DNA of 64,000 bases from Planctomycetia bacterium (GTDB taxonomy: Bacteria; Planctomycetota; Planctomycetia; Gemmatales; Gemmataceae), in NCBI GenBank assembly GCA_005799265.1, contig SYHD01000275.1:1-64000 (forward strand). The letters run 5' to 3'. Of this stretch, positions 1,301-20,273 are shown piece after piece. The translations under genes and the position numbers were made by a program. Position 1 is the stretch's first letter. Each line of letters begins with the position of its first letter. The notes below the pieces were generated by a model. That model saw nothing but the letters and a program-made list of their open reading frames with translations. It searched no databases and was not told the origin of the DNA.

Positions 1301-1365
1301 GACGCGATAGCATACTCAATCGCCGAAAACGTGACAATCGGGATCGGCAAGGTGTGAGCGATTAC
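1226..1365. repeat. Left copy of ~140 bp direct repeat bracketing the island
   Basis: Near-identical (about 5 mismatches by eye) to 21211-21350, same orientation. Confidence 0.9.
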
Positions 1366-3458
1366 CATCTAGCGATTTGCGCATCGCGCAGCCAGCGTGA
1401 AGCGCCGCGATAAACGGTGAAAACTCCGAGGTTGGTCAGCAACACCGCATGTAAGCCCGTGAAGCCCAGCGTGAACGCTCCGACCACAGAGCACAGGTTG
1501 GGAATCAGTGTGCGCGTATAGACAGCTCGGCGGCGCAGCGTGTATTGGCGGGATATGTCCCAGAGGCCCGCAAGGGCTGACAAGTCACGGCGGAGAAGGA
1601 ATGCGTCCGCCGGATCTTCGGCTTGACATACGACGTCCCCAAGTGAAATCGCCACGCTTGCCTGTCGGGCTGCCAGGTCGTTGCGGCGGCAATCTCCGAT
1701 GTAAGCCACGCGGCCTCCTTCCTGTTGGCATTCGTCAATGACAGCGCCCCGATCCAGGCTGGAACTGCAATTCCTCACGAAATCAACACCGAGTCGATCG
1801 GCCAAATCGTTGGTGCGGACCGGCGTTCGATCTGAGATCAAGCCGATTTGCAATTTTCCGTCCGACCGAAGCTGGACGAGGGCTTTCGCCAGGATATTGA
1901 GGAATTGGGGATCAGGCCGGAGGTTCTCCCCAAGGTCGATGAGCACCGTATCAATCGTTCCAATGCGCGCAAAGACATCGACGTTTCGAATGACAATGCC
2001 CCGGTCCAATCCCCGGGTGATGTCTTCGAGAGTGCCCAGCGGCGCTATCATGCCTGGACCGGTAGCATAGTCAGGGCGCAGTACAGCCAATGCGGTATTG
2101 ATATCTCCTACCAAAAGGCCGAGCCCGGCCGTCGCAAGCGTCGGAGCGGAAAGATTGCGAGAAAAAGGTTCTCCTCTGCTACTGAGCGATGCCTTCGCTG
2201 GCGTCGTGGCTGCATGAACGACCGTGGCAATGGCGTGAGCGCGAGTCTGAACTCCCACCGATTCGACGCGCACGCTCAACTCTCCTTCAAACACGAGACT
2301 GTTCGCGTAAACCTGGTCACCGGGCTCTTTCCATGCGTGGTCCACGGCTCCCCGGACAAGCCGTTCATCCACCCGAGCGCGGCCGCTGCTGACGACTCCG
2401 TCGACGGGAATCAATCCGCCGCTCCGAACAGCAAGGACATCGCCTGGTTGGACCGCATCGATGGGGACTTCCCAATGCCGGTCGTCTCGGCACACGCTCG
2501 CGAAATGCGCCTGCCGGCGAATTCGCGTCAATAGATGATTCTGAGCGGTCGCCACACGTCGGTGGTACAAGCGATCCCAGAAATTGACCAGACTGGCCAT
2601 GAGGGCGGCAGGGAAGAACATCCCACTTGCCAACGTCAAGCCAGCGATTGCCGAATACACCGTTGCCGGCCCAGGCCGAAGCTGGCGTAACTCCCGTGCC
2701 GCTTCGCCGAACTTGCGGAGATTGCTCCAAACCAATACTCCTGCGCTAAGCGGCGCTACCATGGGGCTGACGAAATCCGCCATGAGAGACAATCCCAAAT
2801 TGGAATTATCGACCAACACGGCTCGGTTGTGATTTGCGATGCTTCCGGACTGTAAATCGGTCAGATCCTTTAACAGTCCTTCAACGACGTACAACAATTG
2901 TCGCAGCGTCAGAGCACTTTCGTCATAAGAAACGAGCAGAGTTCCAGTGTGGCTGTTAGCGCTCGCTTGCGTCACTCCATGGACCGCGCGGAGTTCATTC
3001 TCGATATGCTGAGCTGCTTCGTATTTGCGCCATATTTCATCATGGCGCAGGCGGACTCGACCCGGAAGGCTATGGACGATCTTCCACGTCGAAATCCCGG
3101 CTTCATACCGGAAAATGCTTACCGAACTGGGACGGCTACGCCGAAGGCAAAGACTCTCAGCTGCGGAAGCATGTGATGGGTTCGGTTGGCCAAGCGCAAC
3201 GGCGAGGCGTCTCAAAAAGGTCCCAGAGGCTTGCTCGACGGAATGAAAGAGGATTGCGCGGCCACGAACCGGATCAATAGAAATTTCACGGAGGTTTTCA
3301 AGCTCAAGAACGCGATTCAAAAAACCACGACAGGATGCAGCCGCGGGTTCCGTGAAGATCCCAGGTTCGTCGAGTTGCACTTCCCCGTTGCCGCCTGACC
3401 GGGCTGCGGGAAATGATATGCGGGCCTGGCGTATCATGGTAATTCCGGCCGTTTCCAA
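1362..3458 (-). CDS. Degenerate (pseudo-) P-type ATPase with two HMA-like N-terminal modules
   Basis: HMA_2-type motif WKIVHSLPGRVRLRHDEIW...TGTLLVSYD and the P-ATPase membrane scaffold. DKTGT is replaced by DLGEN, TGES by RGAV, GDGIND by GDCRRND, and the N-domain is missing. Start uncertain (TTG 3458 or ATG 3437). Confidence 0.85.
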   Translation of the reverse strand: METAGITMIRQARISFPAARSGGNGEVQLDEPGIFTEPAAASCRGFLNRVLELENLREISIDPVRGRAILFHSVEQASGTFLRRLAVALGQPNPSHASAAESLCLRRSRPSSVSIFRYEAGISTWKIVHSLPGRVRLRHDEIWRKYEAAQHIENELRAVHGVTQASANSHTGTLLVSYDESALTLRQLLYVVEGLLKDLTDLQSGSIANHNRAVLVDNSNLGLSLMADFVSPMVAPLSAGVLVWSNLRKFGEAARELRQLRPGPATVYSAIAGLTLASGMFFPAALMASLVNFWDRLYHRRVATAQNHLLTRIRRQAHFASVCRDDRHWEVPIDAVQPGDVLAVRSGGLIPVDGVVSSGRARVDERLVRGAVDHAWKEPGDQVYANSLVFEGELSVRVESVGVQTRAHAIATVVHAATTPAKASLSSRGEPFSRNLSAPTLATAGLGLLVGDINTALAVLRPDYATGPGMIAPLGTLEDITRGLDRGIVIRNVDVFARIGTIDTVLIDLGENLRPDPQFLNILAKALVQLRSDGKLQIGLISDRTPVRTNDLADRLGVDFVRNCSSSLDRGAVIDECQQEGGRVAYIGDCRRNDLAARQASVAISLGDVVCQAEDPADAFLLRRDLSALAGLWDISRQYTLRRRAVYTRTLIPNLCSVVGAFTLGFTGLHAVLLTNLGVFTVYRGASRWLRDAQIARW

Positions 3459-3770: not shown

Positions 3771-6374
3771 TTACCCGCGCTGACGCGTCGCCAAACGCAG
3801 TTGTTCTTCAAGATTTTTTTGGTTCTGCAAACGGGCGACTTCACGCAAGGGCATGACGCCGTTGATCAAGGCGCCAATCGCCGCGACGTTGTTTGTCAAG
3901 ACAGACGCCATGATGCCGAAACCCATCGTGAAAACGCCACCGATGCACAAGGCGTTCGGCAGGATGATCATACCCCAGCTGCGTTTGACGTTGGCATCGA
4001 GGCGGCGTGAAATGTCGAGGAATTCGCACAGCTTGGCCAGGCTCTCTTCCATGAACACGACCTGGGCGGTGTCGGTCGCGATGGAAGTCGCCCCGCGCAA
4101 CGACACCGATACGTTGGCTTTCTTCAAGGCGATCGAGTCGTTGATGCCATCGCCGACGAAGCAAACCTTACGTCCCTGCTTTTGCAGCATTTCCACGTAG
4201 TCCGCTTTGTCCCCGGGGAGGACGCCGGCAAAATACTCGTCCATGCCGAGACTTTCCGCGAGACGGCGCGTGGGCCCTTCGTGGTCACCGGAAATGATGG
4301 CAAGGTGGCTGATGCCGCGTTTCCGCAATCCGGTGACGATTTCCTGTGCTTCCGGCCGATGCGAGGCGCGGAGTTCGAGAGCGCCCCCAAGTTCATCCCC
4401 CACCGCGACCATCACGAGCGAAAAGCCTTCGTCATGGGCTCGGTCCAGCGAGTGCTGAATTTCGGAGGGAATGGCGATGCCTTCCATCGTCATGAAACGG
4501 GCGCTGCCGACGCGAACCCTCTTTCCGTTCACCTCGACGTTGATGCCGAAACCAACGTGATATTTCGAGTCATCGGTGGTGGGCAATGGCCGTCCGAGTG
4601 TGGCGAACTTCTGCATGATGGCCTTGGCAATGGGATGTCCGAAACGATTCTCAGCGGCGGCTGCATAAGTCAGGATTTGCTCGGCATCGTGATTGCCGCA
4701 GGCGTGGATGGCGCCGACCTCCGGCACTTCGCGCGTCAACGTCCCAGTCTTGTCGAAGAGGACGGTGTCCACATCGTTCATCATTTCCATCGCCCGGCCG
4801 TCCTTGACGAGGATGCCGTGCTGGGCGCACAAGGCCAGGGAGCTGAGCATCGCGAGCGGCGCCGCCATGCGGATGCCGGTGCCAAAATCGCTATTAAGAA
4901 CAGCCGTGGCGCCGGCGGGCCCCATCGCCGCCAGAGCGACGGTACCGATGGCAAGGGTCGGCAACACGGCGCGGTCCGCCATTCGTTCCCCCTTGTTCTG
5001 GGAATCCAGCTTGTAGCCGGCCGAATCATTCAGAATGGAAGCGATCTTCGCCGACGTGGTGTCGGTACCTGCTTTTTCCACCTCGACGAACACCTTGCCC
5101 GCCACCACCATCGTCGAAGCGAACACGTGATCGCCGACAACTTTCTCCGCCGGGGTCGATTCACCGGTCAAGGCGTGCTGGTCGATCATCGCGATGCCTT
5201 CCTTGACGATCCCGTCCACAGGGACCGCCTCGCCCGTGCCGACGACGATGATGTCTTGCGGCTGGACTTGCTCCAGGGGAACTTCGATTTCTTGGCCGTC
5301 CCGGCAGAGCCAAACGAAGCGAGGCTGCTTACCGAACGCGCTCATCAATAAGCGTTTAGAACTGTCCTGGGTCATCTTGACGAGTTTACGTCCAAAACTA
5401 AGGCACCAGCAGAGTACGGACCCTGCGAAAATGGAACCGGTGCCCACGCAAGCCGAGACCACGATGGCGTCGAGCACGTCCACGCCCAGGCGCCGTTCCT
5501 TGACCAATACCTGGTACGCTTCCTTGAAGGTGTGAACGGAGGTGTAAACAAAAACGCCCGTGGCGAGCGGCCATAGAGGCGGCGCCAAGAATTGGGCCGC
5601 TGCCGCCAACGGCACGGACAAGGTGCAGATCGGCAAGTTAAGATCGTTCGGGTCAGGCCGGCCCACATTTTCCACTCGATCCAGGGCGCTGTTGAGGACC
5701 TCCAGCACCTGGTCGCGGCGAATCTGTTGTTCGTTGTAAGCGACCAACACCGTTCCCGTGGCGGGATTCGCCTTGTAGTTATCGATCCCCATCACGCTCA
5801 TCAATTCGCGTTCAATCGACTGGCAAACCTCGCTTCGGCGGTAGAGAACTTCATTCCACAGACGTATCCGGCCCGGCAACTCATGGCGCACCTCCCATTT
5901 CGACACGACCGCGCCTTGACGGAACAACCGTAATTCACCCGCCGCATTCGGTTGCCAGCGCACTTTTCGGGGAGCCGGTCCTGGAGTCTTATGAACGTCG
6001 CCATTGCCGCTTCCACTTCCATCCCCATCTGGCGTATGCCCATTTGGCCCGAGACCATGGCCTACCTTGCCGTTGGGGCGTCCGCTGCCAGGACGTACGG
6101 ACACGTGAGTGCCGGATGCTGCTTTTCCATTCGTACTCGCCAGCAGACTCGCAAGAATCTTGTCGAGAGTTTGTTGCCGGGTCGCCGTTAACGGACAGTA
6201 GCTGATCTGCGCATGGGAACGGCTTCCCTGGACCTCGACACTTCGAACCGGCTCCGCAAGCAGAATTCTGTCTAGGAACGATTGACAGAGATCTCCTGAC
6301 GGGTCAGAGAATAGAACGCGGCTTCGAAGCTCAATAGTGCCTTCGCGAGGGTACGCAACGGAGATATCAATCAC
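3771..6374 (-). CDS. P-type ATPase (P1B-like) with two non-canonical HMA-like N-terminal modules
   Basis: LFDKTGTLTREVP, LTGESTPAEK, RFGHPIAKA (HP motif) and GDGINDSIALKKA all intact; WEVRHELPGRIRLWNEVLY (HMA_2-like). GTG start preceded by GAGAGGA. Confidence 0.93.
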   Translation of the reverse strand: MIDISVAYPREGTIELRSRVLFSDPSGDLCQSFLDRILLAEPVRSVEVQGSRSHAQISYCPLTATRQQTLDKILASLLASTNGKAASGTHVSVRPGSGRPNGKVGHGLGPNGHTPDGDGSGSGNGDVHKTPGPAPRKVRWQPNAAGELRLFRQGAVVSKWEVRHELPGRIRLWNEVLYRRSEVCQSIERELMSVMGIDNYKANPATGTVLVAYNEQQIRRDQVLEVLNSALDRVENVGRPDPNDLNLPICTLSVPLAAAAQFLAPPLWPLATGVFVYTSVHTFKEAYQVLVKERRLGVDVLDAIVVSACVGTGSIFAGSVLCWCLSFGRKLVKMTQDSSKRLLMSAFGKQPRFVWLCRDGQEIEVPLEQVQPQDIIVVGTGEAVPVDGIVKEGIAMIDQHALTGESTPAEKVVGDHVFASTMVVAGKVFVEVEKAGTDTTSAKIASILNDSAGYKLDSQNKGERMADRAVLPTLAIGTVALAAMGPAGATAVLNSDFGTGIRMAAPLAMLSSLALCAQHGILVKDGRAMEMMNDVDTVLFDKTGTLTREVPEVGAIHACGNHDAEQILTYAAAAENRFGHPIAKAIMQKFATLGRPLPTTDDSKYHVGFGINVEVNGKRVRVGSARFMTMEGIAIPSEIQHSLDRAHDEGFSLVMVAVGDELGGALELRASHRPEAQEIVTGLRKRGISHLAIISGDHEGPTRRLAESLGMDEYFAGVLPGDKADYVEMLQKQGRKVCFVGDGINDSIALKKANVSVSLRGATSIATDTAQVVFMEESLAKLCEFLDISRRLDANVKRSWGMIILPNALCIGGVFTMGFGIMASVLTNNVAAIGALINGVMPLREVARLQNQKNLEEQLRLATRQRG

Positions 6375-6450: not shown

Positions 6451-6843
6451 CTACGCGGGGACGGGAGCAACAGAGAGCCCGCCAACGGAATCAAGCGACC
6501 CGGACGTTGCGATTTTTCCGGCCCATTGGTCGCGAAGTTTGTGAACGGAATCCGCTGCTGCCTGGGCCCCGTCCACCAAGCCGTGGCAAATGACGTTGTC
6601 TTTGGGCACGAAGCTGAGCACCAAGAACGTCGGGAACATGATGCCGTAGGACATGCAGTAACAGGTGGTGTAGATGGTCTTCGAGACGGCGCGGGCAGTG
6701 GTTTCGGCAACGAGTTGCGCGCTCCTTTGAGCATCCGCAGCGCCGGAGCGAATGCCCTTGGATGCCAAAGTCATTGCCGTGGCGTCCCGTTGCGTTTGGG
6801 CGGAGGCCAGTGTCTGGGTATTCACGGCAGGATCGGTGCTCAT
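6451..6843 (-). CDS. Small membrane protein, FPT/GLxDGA family member A
   Basis: SKTIYTTCYCMSYGIMFPTFLVLSFVPKDNVICHGLVDGAQAAADSVHKLRDQWAG. ATG at 6843 with AAGGAGACATCC upstream. Confidence 0.8.
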   Translation of the reverse strand: MSTDPAVNTQTLASAQTQRDATAMTLASKGIRSGAADAQRSAQLVAETTARAVSKTIYTTCYCMSYGIMFPTFLVLSFVPKDNVICHGLVDGAQAAADSVHKLRDQWAGKIATSGSLDSVGGLSVAPVPA

Positions 6844-7007
6844 GGATGTCTCCTTGCTCTTTTGGTGCAAACCAACCATTCTTTGCGTAGCTCAAACATC
6901 GAGAAGCGACGCCGCTTCCCCAACTTCAACACGTCAAAGCATTTCCACAAACAAGTCACAAGAAAAGGACCGGCCTGGACGAGAAAACGCCACAACCGGG
7001 CGCGTAA

Positions 7008-7691
7008 TCAGTGCAGCAACACCCAAACAATTGCCCGAAACGCTAACTCGGTGCTGTTGTGAATTCCCAGCTTGGTACGCATGCGCTCTCGGTACGTTTC
7101 CACGGTGTGAACACTCACGTCGAGTTTGCGGGCGATGCGACGCGTCGTCTCCCCGCGCCCAATCAATTCAAAAACTTCGAACTCGCGCTGCGTTAGCGCA
7201 TGGAGTGGATTGGGGGGAACGTTTTGGTTGGCGTCCGCGACTTCGCACAGCATCTTTTGGGCAATCGTCGGACTGACAAACATTCGGCCTTCCGCCAGCT
7301 CGCAAAGGCCGTACAGAATCTCGTCCGCGCCTGCGCCGTTGCCCATGTAACCCGCTGCGCCCGCGTTGAGCGCCAACCCCGCATACAGAGAATCCTCGTA
7401 ATTGGAGGTGACCAAAATACGATGCCTGGAGTTGGCTTGTTTCATTCGGGCGATAAAATCCAGCCCCATGCCGTTCTTGAGCGACATGGACAATAGGACC
7501 AGGTCTGGGTTGTGAATCTTGACATCGGCGATCGCTTCCTCGGGGGTGGCGGATTCCTTGCAGATCGAAAAACACGGTTGCTCGCGCAGCAGATTCACTG
7601 CTCCCAGCCGCGCCAGGGAACTATCGCTTACGATGTGAACTGTCTTCGGGAGAACGCCGGGTTCACCGGTTCGGCGCAGAAATGGGTGCAT
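7008..7691 (-). CDS. NarL/LuxR-type response regulator with atypical receiver
   Basis: HTH LTQREFEVFELIGRGETTRRIARKLDVSVHTVETYRERMRTKLG. Receiver DLVLLSMSLKNG carries Ser at the phosphoacceptor position. Confidence 0.9.
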   Translation of the reverse strand: MHPFLRRTGEPGVLPKTVHIVSDSSLARLGAVNLLREQPCFSICKESATPEEAIADVKIHNPDLVLLSMSLKNGMGLDFIARMKQANSRHRILVTSNYEDSLYAGLALNAGAAGYMGNGAGADEILYGLCELAEGRMFVSPTIAQKMLCEVADANQNVPPNPLHALTQREFEVFELIGRGETTRRIARKLDVSVHTVETYRERMRTKLGIHNSTELAFRAIVWVLLH

Positions 7692-7928
7692 GACTGCGCT
7701 CCAGTGGGAAAAACGGCGGACTACGTCGTTTTTCCTGGTTCCTATGTGATTCTCCCAAGAGGAGATCCTATCCTTGACAGGGTTTCGCAATGGGAGAGAG
7801 TATCTAATGTAGTAATTTAAGAAACCAGATCAGCCGAGGAGTCGGAATTAACCGGATTGAGGTGTAGTGGAAATCCTGACAAGAAAGTGATGCCGGGGCA
7901 GAAGGTCGGAGGTTCGCACGCAAACAGA

Positions 7929-8513
7929 CTAACTGCCCCCTTTTCGCATGCGCTCTACGGAATCCTTTGCAGCAATAGCGCCCTCCCGCAATCCCCGGCT
8001 CACGGGGTTGTCTGGCAGCATTTCCATGAGGAGGCACGTCGGAAACGCCACGCCATAACCCACGGCATAACCCGCAGTGTAGGCGATTCTTGACAATACG
8101 TCGGTCGGTGCCGACGCCGGTGTCTTATCAGGCGGCCCCTTGACTTCGGCTTCGGCTGCCGCAGCCGCGACTGCGGCGGCAAGAGCGGCGAATGCGTCGG
8201 CGGAACTGGGTTCAGATGGACCGGACGGCGCTTCCGAAACGGAACCCAAAAAGGAAGCCGCCAGATCCTGAAGGGTTGTTGTTTTCACAGCTTCCTTCAC
8301 CTGCGTTTCCGGAATAGGATCCGATTTTTTCGGTGCAGTTTGCGGCGTGGGAGATTGTATACTCCGGCGGTCCCTTGTATCCGGCGATGGTTGGCGAATC
8401 TCGAATACAGCATGTACGCGGCAGTATTTCGACCCGGGTTGAGCCGGATTCTGGCAGCGCGTATTTCGCTTGGTCATCGCCTTGCACAACATCAGTTCAT
8501 CCTCTGCTTGCAT
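7929..8513 (-). CDS. Cys/His metal-binding knuckle fused to FPT/GLxDGA membrane motif (member D)
   Basis: CKAMTKRNTRCQNPAQPGSKYCRVHA near the N-terminus. C-terminal AYTAGYAVGYGVAFPTCLLMEMLPDNPVSRGLREGAIAAKDSV. Confidence 0.8.
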   Translation of the reverse strand: MQAEDELMLCKAMTKRNTRCQNPAQPGSKYCRVHAVFEIRQPSPDTRDRRSIQSPTPQTAPKKSDPIPETQVKEAVKTTTLQDLAASFLGSVSEAPSGPSEPSSADAFAALAAAVAAAAAEAEVKGPPDKTPASAPTDVLSRIAYTAGYAVGYGVAFPTCLLMEMLPDNPVSRGLREGAIAAKDSVERMRKGGS

Positions 8514-8567
8514 CGCCTACCCAGCGTGAAGCCAATAATCATTACGAGTGATTACAGTCAGCATACC

Positions 8568-9623
8568 TCAGACGCGTGTCGGACCATCCATGCTCTCCGG
8601 TATTTCTTCGTCAATGTCGTGCATGATGGTGGGCAGGCGTACGATCATGTACATTCCTAGCACTGATGCCGCCAGTACGACCATCATGCTTGAACCGCTC
8701 ATCTGAATGAAGACGATATTGAAGACCAGAACGGAGATCAGCAATGCCAACAACGAGCATTTGACCTTACGCCGCATACCACGATATTTCTGCCAGTCAC
8801 GTAGCATCATCCCGAACAGTGTTGAACGGACCAGGCGTTCGTTGAGAGCCGGCGACGAACGCACCAAGAAATATGTCGTCAAGAGGAGGAACGGCACGGT
8901 GGGAATGCCAGGCACGATCAGGCCGATCAACGTCATGCCGAAACTTAGTCCTGCCAGGATGAGGTTAATCGCACGTGCAATCCTGACCACCAGCGTGCGG
9001 AACCCTCGTTCCAGGCGGGCCCGTAACGAGAGCGGCCCGACCGCTTCTTCATATACGGCTTCGTCCGCAACGCGCAGCAGACGCGGAAGGTCGATTCCGG
9101 CTGGGGCAAGACGAACCGTGAGAGTGTTGGATAAAGGCCACAAATACACGGACGTAACTCCGGGAAGCGTCCTCAACTCGGTACACACGTGTTGGGCAAT
9201 TTCTCGATTCTGGGCAACGGCCTGGTGGCGCATCTGGAGATACTGTGGGGTCTGACGTAGGATTTCCCAGGCGGAAAACCTCTCATCGCGGCGATAAATG
9301 CGCGTAGAGCGACGACGTAAGGCCAAATCCAGCAAGGAGCGGATTGGGACGCTCACGGCGTTTGGGGCTGGGCTTTGCAGAGCATTCACCAATCTGGTTA
9401 GCCGCATTTCCGCAGCAAACGCAGACGAACATACCAGCTTGGCGGTGCCCCAGAAGTGGTCGATCTCGAGCGATTGGACCTCCGCAACGCCAAACACCCG
9501 CTCGATGAAATCGCGACAGTCCAGCGTATCAGAATTCTTGAACAACCCTGGCGCCTCGACCCAAACCGCGTCGGACGTGGAACGAATCGAGACACCGGAC
9601 GGGACAGGCTCGCTATTGGACAT
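8568..9623 (-). CDS. DUF454 (YbaN-like) membrane protein with N-terminal HMA-like modules
   Basis: LILAGLSFGMTLIGLIVPGIPTVPFLLLTTYFLVRSSPALNERL is DUF454-like. The N-terminus VWVEAPGLFKNSDTLDCRDFIERVFGVAEVQSLEIDHFWGTAKL matches the 20417-20863 protein and the two P-ATPases. Confidence 0.8.
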   Translation of the reverse strand: MSNSEPVPSGVSIRSTSDAVWVEAPGLFKNSDTLDCRDFIERVFGVAEVQSLEIDHFWGTAKLVCSSAFAAEMRLTRLVNALQSPAPNAVSVPIRSLLDLALRRRSTRIYRRDERFSAWEILRQTPQYLQMRHQAVAQNREIAQHVCTELRTLPGVTSVYLWPLSNTLTVRLAPAGIDLPRLLRVADEAVYEEAVGPLSLRARLERGFRTLVVRIARAINLILAGLSFGMTLIGLIVPGIPTVPFLLLTTYFLVRSSPALNERLVRSTLFGMMLRDWQKYRGMRRKVKCSLLALLISVLVFNIVFIQMSGSSMMVVLAASVLGMYMIVRLPTIMHDIDEEIPESMDGPTRV

Positions 9624-9642
9624 CGCATCACCCCGAATTCGT

Positions 9643-9756
9643 TCAGGCAATGAGGATTCCCACTGCCAGCAAACCTGCGACCCAACCGATGGCGAACACA
9701 AAACCAGTCAACAGGCCTTCAAAGATCATATTCGCGACGCGGGTAATACTGCACAT
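9643..9756 (-). CDS. 37-aa single-TM micropeptide
   Basis: Manual translation MCSITRVANMIFEGLLTGFVFAIGWVAGLLAVGILIA*; AAGGAG located 7 nt before ATG; sits in the gap between two collinear genes. Confidence 0.55.
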   Translation of the reverse strand: MCSITRVANMIFEGLLTGFVFAIGWVAGLLAVGILIA

Positions 9757-9791
9757 CACTTGCTCCTTATTAAATTGCTTGGCGGATAAAG

Positions 9792-10145
9792 CTACTGTTG
9801 TGTTGCCGTGGGGAAACGGCGTTCCATGTCGTCAAGTAACCGGTCGATGACGGAAATTCCGTGTCGGGTCGCGCGGGGATACCGTTGGCCGAGGTACGCA
9901 TGCACTTTTTTGAAGGTCCCTGGCGCCAGAATCAACCCACCTGCGATGATGAGCGGCGTTCCGAATGGACCGGGAAAAGGGAAGGCGAGTACCCCTGCTG
10001 CCACCAAGACGCAACCTATCGGCGCCGGGAGACTTGTGATCCGCGCCACGCTTGCGTCCTCGTCGACCGCTCCATCCGATGTTGCGTTCGTGGCCTTGGG
10101 CGGAGAACTATACTCGACCTGCTTGTCTTCGACTGTTGGTTCCAT
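9792..10145 (-). CDS. Small membrane protein, PGPGW-like
   Basis: PIGCVLVAAGVLAFPFPGPFGTPLIIAGGLILAPGTFKKVHAYLGQRYPR. Confidence 0.6.
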   Translation of the reverse strand: MEPTVEDKQVEYSSPPKATNATSDGAVDEDASVARITSLPAPIGCVLVAAGVLAFPFPGPFGTPLIIAGGLILAPGTFKKVHAYLGQRYPRATRHGISVIDRLLDDMERRFPTATQQ

Positions 10146-10219
10146 GAAGATGCACCATTGAAATCGCTCGGCGATTTGTATCCGTCTGGCCCGTTCAAAC
10201 AGCAAGGAATCGGCGCGCG

Positions 10220-10591
10220 CTAGTGGGTTCCGTTGATTTTCGCGGTCTTGCGAAAGCGACGCTCGGCCAGGGCATCCTGGACACGCTCGATTCGATCATG
10301 CACTTTCTGAGCCGCATCGGCGTAAGTATCATTCGCCTTGTCGGCAACCTTCTTCGCGACATGACTCACACCCTCATGGACCCGTGCGGCGGCTTGTTCG
10401 CCCGACTGTGCACCATCGCACAGCCCATGTCCAAACGCATTGTCGAGGGGCAAACTCTTGATGATCAACTGCGTGGGGAACATCACTCCAAATCCCACGA
10501 AATAGCTCAGAGAATACACCGTACGGGAAATGACCCCAGGCGTTTCCTCGACGGGCTGCTGGGTGGCGACTGCTTCTTCGTTATCGGCCAC
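10220..10591 (-). CDS. Small membrane protein, FPT/GLxDGA family member C
   Basis: SRTVYSLSYFVGFGVMFPTQLIIKSLPLDNAFGHGLCDGAQSGEQAAARV. GTG start at 10591 preceded by AAAGGAGCCC. Confidence 0.75.
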   Translation of the reverse strand: MADNEEAVATQQPVEETPGVISRTVYSLSYFVGFGVMFPTQLIIKSLPLDNAFGHGLCDGAQSGEQAAARVHEGVSHVAKKVADKANDTYADAAQKVHDRIERVQDALAERRFRKTAKINGTH

Positions 10592-10657
10592 GTTGAGGGC
10601 TCCTTTCGCAATATCAGGGCGGCCTCGCAAGCTCGTCCGTGCGGGATGCCCTGGAAG

Positions 10658-11008
10658 TCAGTTGGCAATGGTATCCAAAAGGCGTTTACGCTGGCGCGGT
10701 CGGCGTGGCTTCAACGGCCCAGAACGCCGCCTCGAAGATTTTTCCGAAGTTTCTGTCGCGGTTGTGCCTGGGACCGGAGCATTTGGCGTCGCGTTGGCGG
10801 TCGCTTTTTCAGTCTGCATATCCTTGAAGGCTTCGTTCTGCTCCGCGAATTTGCCTAGCAAATCGCCGTAGGCGCTGCCGAAGCCGGAGGCGGCAGGTCC
10901 AAGCAAGGGCTCAAGCATGGTCCTCACCTTGTCCCAGTTGCGGCCGACAACGCTCCCAATGGCAACGCCCATGGCCAAATACATCAGCTCACTGCGAGTA
11001 ACAGGCAT
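10658..11008 (-). CDS. Small single-TM protein with basic C-terminal tail
   Basis: MPVTRSELMYLAMGVAIGSVVGRNWDKVRTMLEPLLGPAASGFGSAYGDLLGKF...RRRSGPLKPRRPRQRKR. Confidence 0.6.
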   Translation of the reverse strand: MPVTRSELMYLAMGVAIGSVVGRNWDKVRTMLEPLLGPAASGFGSAYGDLLGKFAEQNEAFKDMQTEKATANATPNAPVPGTTATETSEKSSRRRSGPLKPRRPRQRKRLLDTIAN

Positions 11009-11048
11009 GCATAATCTCGAATACAGGCAACTAGGAACGGTCAGTAAT

Positions 11049-11426
11049 TCACGCGGGAACTGGGACGACTGCAAGTGGATTCCCGGCTTCGGCGGCTGTC
11101 TCCGTCCCCGCCCACTGCTTGCGCAGGTTGTACACGGAATCTGCTGCCGCCTGAGCCCCGTCTGTCAAACCATGGCAAATGACGTTGTTCGTCGGAATGA
11201 AGCTGGCGACGAGCATCGTCGGGAAGATAATTCCATAGGACACGCAATAGCAGGTCGTGTAGATAGTCTTCGCGACGACGTTGCTTGCGACGCTCTGCGT
11301 ATCGGCGACTCGAATGCTTTGCGAGGCAAGCGCCATTGCCTTGGCGACCTTTTCCAGGGATGTTTCGCCTGACGGAGTGCTTGTCGCCGCTGACTCGGTC
11401 GGTTGCATGCTGGGATCGGTGCTCAT
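11049..11426 (-). CDS. Small membrane protein, FPT/GLxDGA family member B
   Basis: AKTIYTTCYCVSYGIIFPTMLVASFIPTNNVICHGLTDGAQAAADSVYNLRKQWAG; close paralog of 6451-6843. Confidence 0.8.
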   Translation of the reverse strand: MSTDPSMQPTESAATSTPSGETSLEKVAKAMALASQSIRVADTQSVASNVVAKTIYTTCYCVSYGIIFPTMLVASFIPTNNVICHGLTDGAQAAADSVYNLRKQWAGTETAAEAGNPLAVVPVPA

Positions 11427-11674
11427 TGGTTTCTCCTCGGTGGTTTTGGGGTGATCGGGTCCGATAAAGGAGTCGAAATTCCTCAATTCGCACTAAACGT
11501 CCTCATTCCTTGGTGCGAATTGAGAAGTATTGATCCCACTTCGGACACCTTTCAGGTTGGCAATACCCTCCGCAGTCACCTCAATAATCTAACCATGCGA
11601 TCTTATTGCACAAGTCGCAAAAGAGCGGTAGGCGTGTAGGCAAAACCACCACAACTCGAATGGCCGACGGTTCC

Positions 11675-12358
11675 TCAATTCAGAAGCACCCAAACGATCG
11701 CTCGAAATGACAAGTCGGCGCTGCTGGTAATGCCAAGCTTCGTGCGAATGCGTTCACGATAAGTTTCCACCGTGTGGATGCTCACGTCGAGCTTGCGGGC
11801 GATGCGGCGCGTCGGCTCCCCGCGGCCGATCAGTTCAAACACCTCAAATTCGCGTTGTGTGAGCGCGCGCAACGGATTGGGAGATGCGCTCGAATTGACG
11901 CGGGCCACGTCACACAGCATATTTTGCGCGATCGCCGGGCTGACAAACATACGCCCTTCGGCCAGCTCGCACAGCCCGTAAAGAATTTCGTCGGCGGGAG
12001 CGCTCTTGCTCATGTATCCACAGGCGCCGGCGTTGAGTGCCAACCCCGCATACAGAGCATCATCATAAGAAGAAGTGACCAACATCCGTTGCAAGGGGTT
12101 GGCCTGCTTCATGCGCGTGATGTATTCGAGCCCCAAGCCATTCTTGAGGGACATCGAGAGAAGGACGAGGTCCGGGTTGCAGCTCTTGACATCGGCAAGC
12201 CCTTCATCGGGCGAATTGGACTCCTTGCAGATCGTGAAGCGGGATTGTTCGCGAAGCAGATTTGCCATTCCGAGGCGAACGAGGGAATTATCACTAACAA
12301 CGAGAATTTTCTTTTGCGGAGAGGCCGAATCAATGGAACGTGTCAGGTATGGGTGCAA
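11675..12358 (-). CDS. NarL/LuxR-type response regulator with atypical receiver (paralog of 7008-7691)
   Basis: LTQREFEVFELIGRGEPTRRIARKLDVSIHTVETYRERIRTKLG. DLVLLSMSLKNG again has Ser at the phosphoacceptor. TTG start. Confidence 0.9.
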   Translation of the reverse strand: MHPYLTRSIDSASPQKKILVVSDNSLVRLGMANLLREQSRFTICKESNSPDEGLADVKSCNPDLVLLSMSLKNGLGLEYITRMKQANPLQRMLVTSSYDDALYAGLALNAGACGYMSKSAPADEILYGLCELAEGRMFVSPAIAQNMLCDVARVNSSASPNPLRALTQREFEVFELIGRGEPTRRIARKLDVSIHTVETYRERIRTKLGITSSADLSFRAIVWVLLN

Positions 12359-12599
12359 GATGGACTCCAGGAAAGAAGTCGCACGCTCCCAGCGACATCT
12401 TTACATCAACGCGATTGTTTTGGGACATCCTTTCCGCATAAAGCCGTTGAAGTCAACGAGCAACGGCGTCCTTCGCAGCTTGGCGTCGGCTGTCAACTCC
12501 TCGGTCACGTGCTGACGCAGCTCGCCCGTCAGTTCGACTGGCCCGAAAGCTTCAAAAAGATACGATTGGGGACGGCCAGCTCTCCGATCGTCAGCATTC

Positions 12600-12805
12600 G
12601 TTACTCCAGCTCGGCCTTCAAGCGTTCAAATCTCTTGATTGCGGGCACCGACACCATTCTTGCCCTGGGCCAACCCCGCCCCGCCGCCGGCCAGAAACTC
12701 GTCCTGCCAGCCATACAGTGTCTGTTCACTGATCCCATGCCGCCGCGCCAGCGGCGCCGCTTCCCGTCTTTGCTCGACTGTCAATTCAGATCGGCATCGT
12801 ACATC
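12600..12805 (-). pseudogene. IS3/IS-type OrfA transposase remnant (HTH)
   Basis: Minus-strand frame reads SELTVEQRREAAPLARRHGISEQTLYGWQDEFLAGGGAGLAQGKNG, then a stop. Confidence 0.65.
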
Positions 12806-12945
12806 CCCTCCGGACCGGATAATAGAAGTCTACCCGGCCGCCGGAGCCCTCACCTATGCCGAGTCCCAGGAGATGGAACAATACCCTATTTTGCCCATGC
12901 CTCCAAATGAATTCGCTATGAAATAGCAGTCTGGGCAAAATTTTC

Positions 12946-14238
12946 TTATCGAAAAGTCTCACGGTTCAGGATGCCGGCCAAATCAACGGCTGCATTCCAC
13001 ATATCCGTGAGCGCATCGAGAAAATCGCTTTCCAATGCCGTCAAGGTGCGATGAATGTCGACGTGTGAAGCAAGTGACCTGCCGTCCTTGCCGGCGGCCT
13101 TGCGCGCTTCGGCCGCGGCCTTGCGCGCCATGGGCAGGGCTTCCTGCTCGTGCTGGTTTACCTTTTCCAATGCCTGGTGGTAAGCGCCAAGCATTTGCAA
13201 TGCTTTCACACGCATGTCGTTTTGGATGGCATGCATGGATTCGGTGGCACTGACCACGTTCGACCGGGCTGCGTGAATACCGCCTTGATTTTGATTCCAG
13301 ACGGGAACGGGGAATGTGAGGTTAAACCAGAACTGGTTGTTGCTCGACTGGCCGTTCACGCCCCATTGGTAGGCAGGTCCCAAGGTCGGATTGGGAATCC
13401 AATCAACCTGAGCACGCTTAAGGAGGATCTCGTTCTGCTTTATCAATGATTGACCCACTCGTACCTGGCTACTGTTGTTCGCGACATAATCCAGAAGAGC
13501 GTTGTCATCGACCTGTGGGTAAGGGCCGAGGAGGCTACCGGAAAGTTCCGTGATGGGAAGATTCGGTATCCCCGCGAGGGCGGCTAATTGTTTTCGGCTT
13601 CTGCCCAGGACAACCACGGCGGACCGGTGCAGTCCGACCGTCCGCACGTAGTCGAGTCGAATGGCGGCGAGGTCCGTGTCACTAGCCTTGTTTTTGCCCT
13701 GAGCTTCTTTGCCGGCCTTTTCGAGTTCCGCCAGCGCTTTTAGGATTTCGTCCAGAATCCGCAACCGTGCCTGGGCAGCCAGAGCAACATAGAACTGTTT
13801 TCTCAAGGCGGTTTTCATGGCCATCCGATTGAGCTGAAAAAGCTCGGTGGCCTGCGTGATGGTTTCTTCGACCGCAGCCTGGTCGAGCCGCCGCTTGCCC
13901 ATGACGGGAATTTCCTGTTGGAAGCCGACGTTTGGCAAGCTTTGGCGTCCCGCGAACACAAACGGATTGCCGGAGTTGAAACTCGGATTGGGATAGAGCC
14001 CCGCCTGAATCGCGGCGCCTCGGGACGATTCGATCACGGCTCGGTCGCGCATCAAGATGGGATTGTGCTGATCCGCAATCTGTTCAAGACTCGCCAGACT
14101 GTAGACTTCAATCGCCGGGAGTTTTTGCAGCATTTCCGGCGGCTGCAGTTGGGCAACCTGGGCCGACGCGGGCAACGCACATCCCCACAGCAGGGCCGCC
14201 GCGCACATTGATGTTTCGATCCAGAATCGCATGCTCAA
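12946..14238 (-). CDS. TolC/CzcC-family outer membrane efflux protein
   Basis: Signal peptide, then HNPILMRDRAVIESSRGAAIQAGLYPNPSFNSG...QEIPVMGKRRLDQAAVEE...FNLTFPVPVWNQNQGGIHAARSNV, typical of the OEP family. Confidence 0.9.
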   Translation of the reverse strand: MSMRFWIETSMCAAALLWGCALPASAQVAQLQPPEMLQKLPAIEVYSLASLEQIADQHNPILMRDRAVIESSRGAAIQAGLYPNPSFNSGNPFVFAGRQSLPNVGFQQEIPVMGKRRLDQAAVEETITQATELFQLNRMAMKTALRKQFYVALAAQARLRILDEILKALAELEKAGKEAQGKNKASDTDLAAIRLDYVRTVGLHRSAVVVLGRSRKQLAALAGIPNLPITELSGSLLGPYPQVDDNALLDYVANNSSQVRVGQSLIKQNEILLKRAQVDWIPNPTLGPAYQWGVNGQSSNNQFWFNLTFPVPVWNQNQGGIHAARSNVVSATESMHAIQNDMRVKALQMLGAYHQALEKVNQHEQEALPMARKAAAEARKAAGKDGRSLASHVDIHRTLTALESDFLDALTDMWNAAVDLAGILNRETFR

Positions 14239-14268
14239 TATCTCCAGGCAATGCGCGGATGCCGCGGG

Positions 14269-15231
14269 TCAATACCGGTACTCAGCCCGCAGAACGATCC
14301 CCTGAAGGAGAAATTGGCTGCCGCCGTTCTGCAACGAGGAACTCAAGAACCACCATTGTTCAAGCGAATACCCGGCCGCGAGCCGAAGCGAGGACAAACT
14401 CGGCGGCGTGTAATTAACGCCGAACTCCCCCGCGACGATAACCGCGCCGGTATTAAATGGGCCAGTATTCTGGAAAACGTTCCCCACTCCCGTCGAGGTC
14501 GTCTGAGAAACAGAATTTTTTATCTGTCCAAAAAGACCTTCGGCTCCGCCCCGGAAGTACAACGACAGCGAGGATAGTCCGACCGGTTGGGTGTAGCGCA
14601 GTACGGCTCGTGGGCCGATACCCCAATAATTGGTGGAAGTGTGTGCGCTCAGGATTTGCTGGCCGGTGATCTGGGAATCATGAAACCAGGTGGCCACGCC
14701 GAGGCCGAATCCTACCACCAGTTGCCGACGAAAGAATGGGCTCAACTCGTCCGCGCCGGGCACGATTTCCGAACTGAGGTATTCAAGGTTGACGGTTTGC
14801 ACGTCGAGCCGGCTTTTCTCCTGGCCGGCTCCAGCTTGATCAAAATTCGGGATGACCGTTGTCCCCTGCGTTCCGAATCCCCGGTAAGTGAGGTTGACGT
14901 CCCCCGCGCCGTCGCCGCAACGATAGCCGAGCATGAGTTTCGGCGCTCCGGTCCAGTTGAGCGGGGCTGCGGGATAGACTTCGACGCGATCAGTCACATG
15001 GGGCTTGAGGATGTCGGCCTCGACGCTGCCGTACCACATTCCCGGTGCAAAGAAGGGAGCCGGGCTGAAATATTCGGTTGCGGCTTTCGTCGTCGGTTGG
15101 GCAGGCGTGGAAGCCGGGGGGATCAACCAATTCCCGGATCCTTTCGGGGCCGCCAGTTCCGGGATCGGCTGCGGCGATGGCAGCTGCCCGCACGGCATCA
15201 ACGCCCAAAGGATACTGAAACATACGTTCAT
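14269..15231 (-). CDS. Outer-membrane beta-barrel protein (BBP7/Lpg1974-like)
   Basis: FFAPGMWYGSVEADILKPHV...KLMLGYRCGDGAGDVNLTYRGFGTQG...GIGPRAVLRYTQPVG..., terminal aromatic-rich strand LRAEYRY. Confidence 0.65.
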   Translation of the reverse strand: MNVCFSILWALMPCGQLPSPQPIPELAAPKGSGNWLIPPASTPAQPTTKAATEYFSPAPFFAPGMWYGSVEADILKPHVTDRVEVYPAAPLNWTGAPKLMLGYRCGDGAGDVNLTYRGFGTQGTTVIPNFDQAGAGQEKSRLDVQTVNLEYLSSEIVPGADELSPFFRRQLVVGFGLGVATWFHDSQITGQQILSAHTSTNYWGIGPRAVLRYTQPVGLSSLSLYFRGGAEGLFGQIKNSVSQTTSTGVGNVFQNTGPFNTGAVIVAGEFGVNYTPPSLSSLRLAAGYSLEQWWFLSSSLQNGGSQFLLQGIVLRAEYRY

Positions 15232-15496
15232 TATGCCATCGCTCCACGGCCCTGCGTCACGTTTTTTTCAACCTTGAGTAAATATCGGGCCGACGTTCCT
15301 TTTTCTTGAGAGCGGCGGTGGACGTTTCCGAATTTGCCGATTAAAACGGTGGGTTGGGCGAATCTGGTTCAGTTGGATTTGGTAGTGAAAGCCACTACGG
15401 ACCACTTTTTATTTACCTTCGCAGATTTACTGACCGGAAGTTACAATATTCGTCAATTGATGTTGAGCCTTTTTCATATTGCCAGAGGTAATACCC

Positions 15497-16522
15497 ATGC
15501 TGCCATTGAACGAATACGAAGATAAGCAGGTACGGCACATTGCCGGTTGGAAGGCGGAGCGGACTTCCCTTTTGGGCACCGTCTTAGATCGATTGACGGC
15601 GCCATTAGCAAGAATAGTGCGTAAAGCCATCCCCGAGGATGCCGTTCAGGAATGGGTCCGCGTGGCCTTTGAGGTGTCGGAAGTTTTCTGCCACGTAGAG
15701 AAGGTGACGGCGCGCGCCGGCGTGAAAGACGTCCATGAACTCCTCCACAAGGACTTGGCTTTTTGCGACTCATTGGCAGACCACTTCATTCACCAGGCCG
15801 GCGAGGGGGCGTTGTTCCGCACCCTCACCGGCAGCGGCGGCGGCGCCTTGAACATTCGTATGATGATGAGTTACTCTCTCCAGGCGATTCACACCGTCGG
15901 CTTTTGTTATGGTTTCGGCCTCGACGAGCCTCATGAGCGCGATTACACCATGAGCGTTCTCGAACTGGCTTCAGCGAACACCATGGCGGAAAAGGTCGCG
16001 GCGCTGCATAAAGTCGGCAAGGTCAAGGAAATGATCATTGATGAGGCCCTTACGGAACTTGCCGAGGAAGCGATTGTTGAAGGAATCGCCATGTCCGGCT
16101 CGCTCCACAATATCCCGTTGTTCGGCATGGCGGCCGGCGCCGTTCACGATGCGTATGTCGCGGATAATGTAGCCAAGGTCGCAAAGATTTGTTTCCAGGA
16201 ACGCTGGTTGCATCGTCAGGGTAAAGTGGATGAGATTGCGCCCGATCCTAAGGAGGCCCGCTGGATTCCGCAACGTTACGCCGAGCCGATTGTGACAGGT
16301 GCGTATTATGTCTCCTTCTCGCTCGGCTTCGCCTTGGCGTTTCCTCCCTTACTTCTTGCCAGCCTTATTTCTCCAAAGAGTTCCATGGCCGAGGGGCTTG
16401 CAGATGGATACGATGCGGCCAACCAAGATGTCGATCGCATGAAGGCGTGGGTCAAGGAGTCGGTCACGGCGAACACGTCAATTTCCGTACCGAATCCTGT
16501 GCCCGCCGCAGCAGGCGCATGA
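15497..16522 (+). CDS. EcsC-family-like protein with C-terminal FPP/GLADG membrane motif (member E)
   Basis: IRMMMSYSLQAIHTVGFCYGFGLDEPHERDYTMSVLELASA resembles EcsC. C-terminal TGAYYVSFSLGFALAFPPLLLASLISPKSSMAEGLADGYDAANQDVDRMKAW. Confidence 0.65.
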   Translation: MLPLNEYEDKQVRHIAGWKAERTSLLGTVLDRLTAPLARIVRKAIPEDAVQEWVRVAFEVSEVFCHVEKVTARAGVKDVHELLHKDLAFCDSLADHFIHQAGEGALFRTLTGSGGGALNIRMMMSYSLQAIHTVGFCYGFGLDEPHERDYTMSVLELASANTMAEKVAALHKVGKVKEMIIDEALTELAEEAIVEGIAMSGSLHNIPLFGMAAGAVHDAYVADNVAKVAKICFQERWLHRQGKVDEIAPDPKEARWIPQRYAEPIVTGAYYVSFSLGFALAFPPLLLASLISPKSSMAEGLADGYDAANQDVDRMKAWVKESVTANTSISVPNPVPAAAGA

Positions 16523-16561: not shown

Positions 16562-16867
16562 ATGGCCACAAAGGAACGGCTCTACGAACGCAAAGTCAAG
16601 AAACCTTTGGACAAAAAGAAGAAGGAACTCCTCGGCGAAATCGTGAAGAAAAAGCTTGGCGGCGCGATTCAGCGCCAAGAATGGAACGACAACGCCACGA
16701 CACTGACCGTGACCACCCAGCATGTCACCTTTATCCTCTCGTCGGATGCCGAATCCCTGTATGTGGACGCGGAATACTCATGGCTGGCCCGATTTCTTGT
16801 GACGGAAGATAATCGCAAACAAGCTCGCGAGATGGCCATGGCCATTGCCGATGAGGCAGGGCTCTGA
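16562..16867 (+). CDS. Hypothetical protein, 101 aa
   Basis: ORF MATKERLYERKVKKPLDKKKKELL...; collinear with the EcsC-like gene, 40 nt downstream. Confidence 0.55.
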   Translation: MATKERLYERKVKKPLDKKKKELLGEIVKKKLGGAIQRQEWNDNATTLTVTTQHVTFILSSDAESLYVDAEYSWLARFLVTEDNRKQAREMAMAIADEAGL

Positions 16868-17199: not shown

Positions 17200-17964
17200 T
17201 TACCGAGACACGGCTGGCAGTGACATTGGAATAACGGTGCCGCTTTTCGTTACGTGGCAATGGTGCGGACACACCCAGTGCGTGTCGCCGGGGCCGTGAA
17301 TAAGGACTCCCGTAAACGACGCATGATCGCAGACGCCGTAGTCAATGGAGCGGTGTAGCCGTTGAAGATCGTCTGTGATGACGGTGCATGCCAGCTTGGT
17401 AATGCCGGCGTGATCGGGGTGTTCGCCATAGCGCAGCGCCGAAAGGATCTTTTGCCGCACGATGCATTGTTCGATGTCGTCCAGGTCGATTTGAAAATTG
17501 ATTTTCCCGTCGCGCAACTCGTGGAGAATCATGCTGAGTGATCCGCACGCGTGAGAAACTTCGCCGATTCCCTCACGAAAAACGGTACCGACCTCGCCTT
17601 CCTGGGAAATTGCCACGTGCGGCATGGCGTAAAAGACAAAACGACGTTTGCCGTCGGCGAAGGGAGCATGGCTCAAGACGGTTGCGATGCCGCTTTTTCC
17701 CGCTAGCAGGAAGCCGCCGAGACTGCGAAAATCGAACGTCTTGCCCCAGTTTTTGACGACCTCGCTAAATAGGGGTTCGGCAATTTCGTCGCGGCAGGCG
17801 GCGACGACGCCGAGGGTGTTGTCGTAATCAAACCCGAATTGGTTGAGTTCCCGGCATGTCAGCTGGATGTAATCGTCGAGGGGACGGCTGCCGGGAAAAA
17901 GCGCATGGAGGGTTTTGAGGAAGAGGGGTGCCTTTCCGACATCGGCCTCGTTGGATCCTGCCAT
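17200..17964 (-). CDS. LCIB-like (theta-class) carbonic anhydrase family protein
   Basis: GFDYDNTLGVVAACRDEIAEPLFSEVVKNWGKTFDFRSLGGFLLAGKSGIA, FVFYAMPHVAISQEGEVGTVFREGIGEVSHACGSL, DDIEQCIVRQKILSAL. The CRDE, His and SHACG ligand motifs are kept. Confidence 0.85.
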   Translation of the reverse strand: MAGSNEADVGKAPLFLKTLHALFPGSRPLDDYIQLTCRELNQFGFDYDNTLGVVAACRDEIAEPLFSEVVKNWGKTFDFRSLGGFLLAGKSGIATVLSHAPFADGKRRFVFYAMPHVAISQEGEVGTVFREGIGEVSHACGSLSMILHELRDGKINFQIDLDDIEQCIVRQKILSALRYGEHPDHAGITKLACTVITDDLQRLHRSIDYGVCDHASFTGVLIHGPGDTHWVCPHHCHVTKSGTVIPMSLPAVSR

Positions 17965-19280: not shown

Positions 19281-20273
19281 TCAATCGCCGATCAGTTTCC
19301 GGAGCCAAAAACTCACGGGCACGAGCAAAGCTGCTCCAAACTGCAAGCAGCCAGCCGTCGCGGGAAGCAATCCTTGCGCTTCGATTGTGGCTCGTGGCAC
19401 GGACCATTTGTTTCCAACGATTGGAGCCAAGAACGCAAGAGGTGATTCCGCTAGCCAGGAGTTGTGTTTCGCTTCCTGGAACATGGTTTCGATTGCTTGC
19501 CTCTCGGAATCGGTCCGTGCCCATTGGTCCAACGTCTGGCGTTCGGCGGCGGTCATGGGGCCGAACCACCGAACTTTCCCATCGGCGCAAGTGAGCTTTG
19601 TTTGAAAGTCCGCCGGCAATTCCGTAAGTCTTTCAGGGCTTTCCAAATTAGCTTCGGTCACGAACCACTTCTCCCAGGAATTGCTCAAGACCACACCGGG
19701 ACCGTGCACGAAAGCGGCGGCAACCTCGCGGCTGGAGAGCACCATCTGGCAGGCGGTGAAGGCAAGCACCCCTGCGCCGAGAGGCGTGATCCACTGCCAA
19801 CGTCTCATCAGGGCGGCAATACCGTTACTACAAAACAGAATGAAAATCGTAGAGACAAGCAACCCGAAGACCATCCCACGGAAGTCGCCGCTGCTTGCGC
19901 CGGCGACCGCGAGGATGTTGTCCAAACTCATCACGAGACTGGCCAGCAAGATGGTGCGTACAGCCACGAAGACGGTTCTGGAAGCCATCAGCTTGGGCTC
20001 ATTGCCGGACTTTTCCGCGCTCACCAATTTGAACGTGATGAAGAAGAGAACGATGCCTCCCACCAACATAAGCCCAGGAACGTACAGCAGGAAGGTGGCC
20101 AAGAAGGTGAACGCGATTTGGAAGAAAATCGCCAACCCGCCGCCGAGGAGCATCGCCATGCGCCTCTGCGCCGGCGGCAAACGGTGGGCCGCGAGCGCGA
20201 TCACCATTGCGTTGTCCGCAGACAATGCAACATTGATCATAAAAATATGAAGTACCGTAGCGGGGCTATCCAT
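19281..20273 (-). CDS. TerC-family (YjbE-like) integral membrane protein
   Basis: MINVALSADNAMVIALAAHRLPPAQRRMAMLLGGGLAIFFQ...LLASLVMSLDNILAVAGASSGD. Confidence 0.9.
   Translation of the reverse strand: MDSPATVLHIFMINVALSADNAMVIALAAHRLPPAQRRMAMLLGGGLAIFFQIAFTFLATFLLYVPGLMLVGGIVLFFITFKLVSAEKSGNEPKLMASRTVFVAVRTILLASLVMSLDNILAVAGASSGDFRGMVFGLLVSTIFILFCSNGIAALMRRWQWITPLGAGVLAFTACQMVLSSREVAAAFVHGPGVVLSNSWEKWFVTEANLESPERLTELPADFQTKLTCADGKVRWFGPMTAAERQTLDQWARTDSERQAIETMFQEAKHNSWLAESPLAFLAPIVGNKWSVPRATIEAQGLLPATAGCLQFGAALLVPVSFWLRKLIGD

Follow-up and report, generated by a model that had tools for sequence, protein, structure and literature searches.

A small membrane domain encoded beside a P1B-class ATPase and its degenerate twin: a candidate pump partner in planctomycetes and other bacteria

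P-type ATPases usually work alone or with few small subunits. What is the role of a small membrane domain that occurs in five proteins close to two P-type ATPase genes in a planctomycete? We analyzed a stretch of 64,000 nucleotides from a Planctomycetia bacterium (GenBank assembly GCA_005799265.1, contig SYHD01000275.1, positions 1 to 64,000), called the window here. Five proteins of the window, A to E, share a domain of about 65 residues, which we call X and which had been proposed by eye in an earlier note on this DNA. The neighboring ATPase genes encode an intact pump, ATP1, and a degenerate twin, ATP2. In planctomycetes, verrucomicrobia and proteobacteria, X is nearly always encoded beside ATP1 and this dead twin, and it is therefore most likely a small partner of the pump. 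We give somewhat more credence than doubt to the reading that X is a small membrane subunit that partners a two-component P-type ATPase made of ATP1 and ATP2, as its scaffold, assembly factor or regulator.

The five segments lie where the earlier note had placed them, letter for letter, and its claim that they form one shared domain, which it did not recognize as a named one, held. Pairwise scores among A to E were compared with 2000 shuffles, in which the compositions of the membrane half and the tail half were kept apart; z values ranged from 8.7 to 40, and 0 of 2000 shuffles reached the observed score. Because shuffles that preserve the two halves never match the observed scores, the similarity goes beyond generic membrane composition. 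A profile of 74 homologues, built without window sequences and without EcsC-fused sequences, found A (5e-27), B (4e-25), C (4e-18), D (2e-20) and E (4e-11) among the open reading frames of the window. Furthermore, a profile of 24 homologues, all of them proteobacterial or verrucomicrobial and none planctomycete, placed A (4e-20), B (2e-19), D (1e-15), C (1e-13) and E (2e-6) at ranks 1 to 5 of all window reading frames; the next window reading frame had an E-value of 0.68 and the best shuffled one 0.70. In these profile tests no window reading frame other than A to E reached an E-value below 0.21. Although E is the weakest of the five by eye, the outside-only profile ranks it above all non-X reading frames, and it is therefore a true member. 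Generic membrane composition was thus rejected as the source of the likeness by the shuffles and by the outside-homologue profiles. No model of Pfam-A or NCBIfam matches the domain region in A to E or in nine distant homologues, and a known domain of these collections was rejected as the identity of X. Relatives with solved structures were found neither by sequence, where only helical proteins at chance level appeared, nor by fold search of the PDB. X is one homologous, so far unnamed family.

The earlier note had suggested that a profile be built, homologues searched and their neighbors listed. This revealed X beyond the window, beside P-type ATPases, and the tie to the neighboring ATPases that the note suspected is strongly supported by gene neighborhood. 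A scan of genome contigs with protein A alone gave no match, and the locus set came from a scan of named genomes with ATP1, which yielded 65 ATP1 loci in Planctomycetota, Verrucomicrobiota, and alpha- and gamma-Proteobacteria. X is present in 54 of them, at a median distance of 416 bp from ATP1 and within 1 kb in 49, usually as the gene directly upstream of ATP1 or one gene removed. Eight of the 11 loci without X have less than 1.3 kb of sequence upstream of ATP1. ATP1 was the query that produced the 65 loci, so the unbiased part consists of the results from the order of the window's genome and from plasmids, where X and ATP1 were searched separately. In that order, X occurs in four of 102 genomes, exactly the four that have ATP1. 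Such co-occurrence would be expected 1 time in 4.2 million under independence, a figure that overstates the case because three of the four carrier genomes belong to one genus. Among 72,556 plasmids, X was found in one, and the same plasmid holds the best ATP1 match. This plasmid is pMRAD05 (NC_010518.1) of Methylobacterium radiotolerans, on which X (L140:8197-8658; L numbers denote our loci) precedes the P-type ATPase gene ATP1 by 24 bp and is unannotated in the PLSDB gene table. In summary, the linkage of X to ATP1 is tight and extends over several phyla. In sampling within phyla, X turned up in at least two of the 393 planctomycete genomes and in at least one of 399 Pseudomonadota genomes at a convincing E-value; both counts are lower bounds, because no more than 15 candidates were scored in each genome. 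Since these genomes are so few, the family is sparse. Neither X nor ATP1 is present in six congeners of the window's genome, which suggests that the cassette is patchy and probably mobile.

ATP1 (3771-6374, minus strand) carries an HMA_2 domain and intact TGES, DKTGTLT and GDGIND motifs. It is a P1B-class (CopA/ZntA-like) pump and is predicted to be active. Its fourth transmembrane segment (TM4) reads NSDFGTGIRMAAP in place of CPC. Nearly all members of the ATP1 clade have GTGIRMAAP or close variants there; CPC was seen in one row, which is probably a non-orthologous extra. ATP1 thus lacks the TM4 CPC of P1B1 and P1B2 ATPases. It also lacks the HN that P1B6-like ATPases have in TM6, where ATP1 reads TNN and its TN is aligned to the HN of the yardsticks from Rhodococcus and Priestia; across the clade, TM6 has TNN or FNQ. 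In one planctomycete, G013, ATP1 (L020/L055; L020:13759-16467) reads DNTGTLT and not DKTGTLT. This may mean that the "active" pump is degenerating in this genome as well, or the base may be a sequencing error.

ATP2 (1362-3458, minus strand) is a P-type ATPase-like protein, also with HMA_2, that has neither DKTG nor TGES, reads GDCRRND, and in the window has lost most of the nucleotide-binding domain. Its homology to P-type ATPases in the A domain and the membrane region is clear (PF00122, E 1.8e-22; Cu-ATPases of the PDB, down to 3e-17). It is present in 44 of the 52 ATP1 loci with enough sequence, and conserved ATP2 beside intact ATP1 is also seen in L032, L038, L046, L075 and others. The DKTG phosphorylation site is absent in 46 of 46 distinct copies, and TGES and GDGxND are degenerate. 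Judged from these motifs, ATP2 is a conserved P-type framework and a catalytically dead homologue. In the literature searched, we found no description of an active and pseudo P-type ATPase pair or of an accessory protein of this sort.

From its N-terminus, X runs through an Ala-rich helix, a Tyr/Gly membrane segment of weak hydrophobicity, a short turn with P-x-x-N, and an amphipathic helix with G-x3-G. An alignment of 52 diverse members spans about 67 columns; both glycines of G-x3-G ("GLxDG") are invariant, and two Tyr, one Gly, one Pro and one Ala are at least 90% conserved. The G-x3-G is kept in 78 of 78 stand-alone members. Full-length members carry an extra Ala-rich N-terminal helix, often with DPLxxVADAM; the Ala-rich N-terminal helix of the family is absent from the description in the earlier note, which read the domain as one transmembrane helix followed by a conserved amphipathic GLxDGA segment. 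A single transmembrane helix is plausible, but the segment is only weakly hydrophobic (mean best 21-residue Kyte-Doolittle value 1.38; no more than 14% of the 78 homologues go above 1.6), so it could either span the membrane as a closely packed helix or rest on the membrane surface. The conservation of the second segment stands, and its amphipathicity is moderate (mean moment 0.34 versus 0.22 in shuffles, sd 0.11). AlphaFold predicts two helices, residues 9-77 and residues 84-118, that meet in a short turn at P-x-x-N; the predicted local distance difference test (pLDDT) score of the second helix is about 93 and the predicted template modeling (pTM) score is 0.39, and the overall fold is uncertain. 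The N-terminal flank of the membrane segment is the more positive one (K+R 2.2 versus 1.5), and this charge, together with EcsC and knuckle fusions at the N-terminus, suggests that the N-terminus is cytosolic.

As the earlier note had proposed, X occurs both alone and behind EcsC, and both forms recur in other genomes. The stand-alone paralogues, all on the minus strand, are A (6451-6879; domain 6520-6708), which has a likely ATG at 6843 behind AAGGAG and is directly upstream of ATP1, B (11049-11486; domain 11109-11294), and C (10220-10630; domain 10367-10552), which has a long polar C-terminal helix-like tail. Protein E (15479-16522, plus strand; domain 16268-16459) is an EcsC family member (PF12787, residues 16-244, E 2e-23; 83.8 bits, gathering score 30.4) with X at its C-terminus. 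The family model matches the N-terminal part of E and of the recurrent EcsC-X fusions and ends before X; X is thus an added C-terminal domain. Such fusions are found in L020/L055, L021, L044, L057, L063 and L127, the last of which (Aquisphaera, L127:9044-10108) adjoins an Hsp70-like gene. The proposed zinc knuckle in front of X in D (7929-8513, minus strand; domain 7938-8117) fared less well: a Cys/His segment is present at the N-terminus, but it is under the curated cut-offs (NF041373, 18.4 versus 29 bits; PF19067, 13.9 versus 26.3 bits), and D is the only case of this form seen. In Methylococcus, two X copies lie outside ATPase loci (L124:8675-9376 and L125:8917-9405), one of them followed by a PGPGW-like gene.

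Besides X and the ATPases, the cassette contains other recurrent genes. The common order is X, a small one-segment protein, ATP1, a protein of about 105 residues, a "DTGW" protein of about 170 residues, a small membrane protein and ATP2, after which PGPGW-like, X or EcsC-X, CAX and DUF454 genes follow, with ExoD added in alphaproteobacteria. In the window, on the minus strand, we found the small protein with one hydrophobic segment (D5132; 10658-11074), whose homologues lie between X and ATP1 in many loci, a PGPGW-like small membrane protein under the Pfam cut-off (9792-10205), and a DUF454 protein (PF04304; 8568-9701), which at its N-terminus is similar to the N-terminal region of ATP2. On the plus strand are a recurrent protein of about 100 residues from an unnamed family (16562-16867) and a recurrent CAX-type cation/proton exchanger (PF01699; 18197-19279); the latter is only a hint that divalent cations may be the pump substrate. 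The DTGW protein, so called here for a conserved motif, lies between ATP1 and ATP2 in 26 loci (e.g., L075:12335-12853, L061:12858-13361 and L028:6113-6805), and its L075 copy has no Pfam match. Directly upstream of ATP2, a protein of about 80 residues with one hydrophobic segment has homologues in 24 loci (e.g., L061:13348-13590 and L028:5881-6111). LuxR-type response regulators are encoded just upstream of A (7008-7790, minus strand) and B (11675-12358, minus strand); they are identical at 164 of 227 residues, and regulator plus X is a duplicated unit. The usual phospho-Asp position of the receiver is apparently Ser (DLVLLSMSLK), and therefore both regulators may be phosphorylation-independent. 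An LCIB-type carbonic anhydrase (17200-17964, minus strand), a TerC-family membrane protein (19281-20273, minus strand) and an outer-membrane efflux protein (12946-14238, minus strand) are encoded near the cassette.

If X is a partner subunit, its N-terminal Ala-rich helix would be in the cytosol, its Tyr/Gly-rich segment would pack onto the pump or onto further copies of X within the membrane, and the helix with the invariant G-x3-G would pack against another helix. Paralogues, one fused to EcsC and one with the zinc-knuckle-like segment, might then recruit different N-terminal modules to the same membrane assembly. A bolder version, which we hold only tentatively, is that X hairpins assemble ATP1 and ATP2, one active and one pseudo-enzyme half, into an obligate heteromeric P-type ATPase and also recruit the EcsC and zinc-knuckle-like modules; the whole would be a modular, horizontally spreading paired pump of a so far undescribed kind. 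Several observations weigh against a partner subunit. Two ATP1 loci lack X across more than 9 kb upstream (L030 and L084), the nearest X in L071 is about 11 kb from ATP1, and X occurs with no P-type ATPase nearby in Methylococcus (L124 and L125) and Aquisphaera (L127). The hydrophobicity is marginal for a spanning helix, the pTM of the model is low, and gene linkage could come from a shared pathway. Some of this fits another explanation, possible but doubtful in our judgment, in which X is a general membrane-surface or envelope-stress module (an amphipathic hairpin) that merely shares an operon or regulator with ATPases, EcsC, ExoD, DUF454, PGPGW and CAX. Its fusion to EcsC, its presence at sites without a P-type ATPase, and the many other small membrane proteins in the cassette would be expected of such a module. 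However, a general module would not be expected to track ATP1 exactly in presence and absence among 102 genomes, nor to lie so regularly next to ATP1 or one gene away, even on a plasmid.

Two further explanations keep X close to the pump. Rather than a scaffold, X might chiefly be an inhibitory or regulatory micro-subunit that binds the pump through its second helix, comparable to phospholamban or to KdpF of KdpFABC. The size of X, its single hydrophobic helix and its invariant G-x3-G agree with this; several paralogues per locus could tune activity, and A and B are each behind their own response regulator. Nevertheless, we consider it unlikely, as neither homology to solved structures nor a PDB fold match was found, and the present data do not separate regulation from assembly. 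It is very unlikely that X is a PacL family member (DUF1490/DUF6110) acting as a metallochaperone that passes a metal to ATP1. X is of the same size class, with one membrane segment and an Ala-rich helix, and DUF1490 genes are likewise placed upstream of P-type ATPases on plasmids of Rhodococcus, Mycobacterium and Pseudonocardia. Against this, hhalign gave a probability of only 0.3-0.5% against eight DUF1490 proteins, no X member tested matched DUF1490 or DUF6110 in Pfam, the tails of X are poor in His and Cys, and the Ala-rich segment is on the opposite side of the membrane segment. Thus, X as a member of PacL/DUF1490 was rejected, since it has no hhalign homology, no metal tail and a reversed layout.

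The cassette of planctomycetes, verrucomicrobia, and alpha- and gamma-proteobacteria joins an active pump, a conserved dead copy and a new small membrane protein. If the partner subunit is real, X would join PacL as a second small-protein partner of P1B pumps, one that evolved independently, and ATP1/ATP2 would be a candidate active/pseudo-enzyme P-type pump. The pMRAD05 case indicates that X genes can escape gene calling. Methylococcus, Xanthobacter and Methylobacterium are culturable hosts for direct tests.

Among known systems, KdpFABC resembles the proposed arrangement in that small membrane proteins serve as accessory subunits of a P-type ATPase. As differences, we saw no relation by sequence and noticed no gene like KdpA in the X loci, and ATP1 belongs to the P1B class. 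DUF6110 proteins are small membrane proteins with no metal-binding motif, encoded beside P1B6 ATPases (PMC9374683), and X is like them in size, in the missing motif and in its P1B-type neighbor. The DUF6110 model (PF19605) has no match in A to E, 11 domain segments or nine distant members, and X is set apart from DUF6110 by the lack of a match to this Pfam model. Searches for DUF6110 members in the window's genome and in 299 Pseudomonadota genomes found none, but their controls gave no signal either.

The closest analogy is PacL. PacL proteins are small Ala/Glu-rich membrane proteins encoded with P1B ATPases, and they stabilize and cluster the pump (PMC9374683, PMC13043812); PacL is needed for the abundance and clustering of CtpC (PMC9374683; PMC13043812). 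Unlike PacL, whose Ala/Glu repeats come after the membrane helix, X has its Ala-rich segment (24% A, 5% E) before the membrane segment. The membrane helix of PacL carries K9 and GxxG (PMC13043812); K9, G17 and G20 are invariant in the DUF1490 alignment A8 and have no counterpart in X. X also lacks the C-terminal, Asp/His-rich metal-binding motif (C+H 1.8% after the membrane segment; on average 0.4 C/H in the last 25 residues). This alone is not decisive, because PacL2 has only half of the metal-binding motif (PMC9374683). Furthermore, the ATPase partnered with X differs from PacL pumps in lacking CPC (GTGIRMAAP) and HN (TNN) and in having a dead twin. On the other side, X and PacL1-3 (DUF1490, PF07371), which go with CtpC, CtpG and CtpV of Mycobacterium tuberculosis, are all small and Ala-rich with one hydrophobic segment. 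Like PacL, X is encoded directly upstream of a P1B-class ATPase (within 1 kb at 49 of 65 ATP1 loci), has several paralogues per genome, and carries a small-residue motif of a kind implicated in helix packing. By this analogy X, though not a PacL member, may work like PacL.

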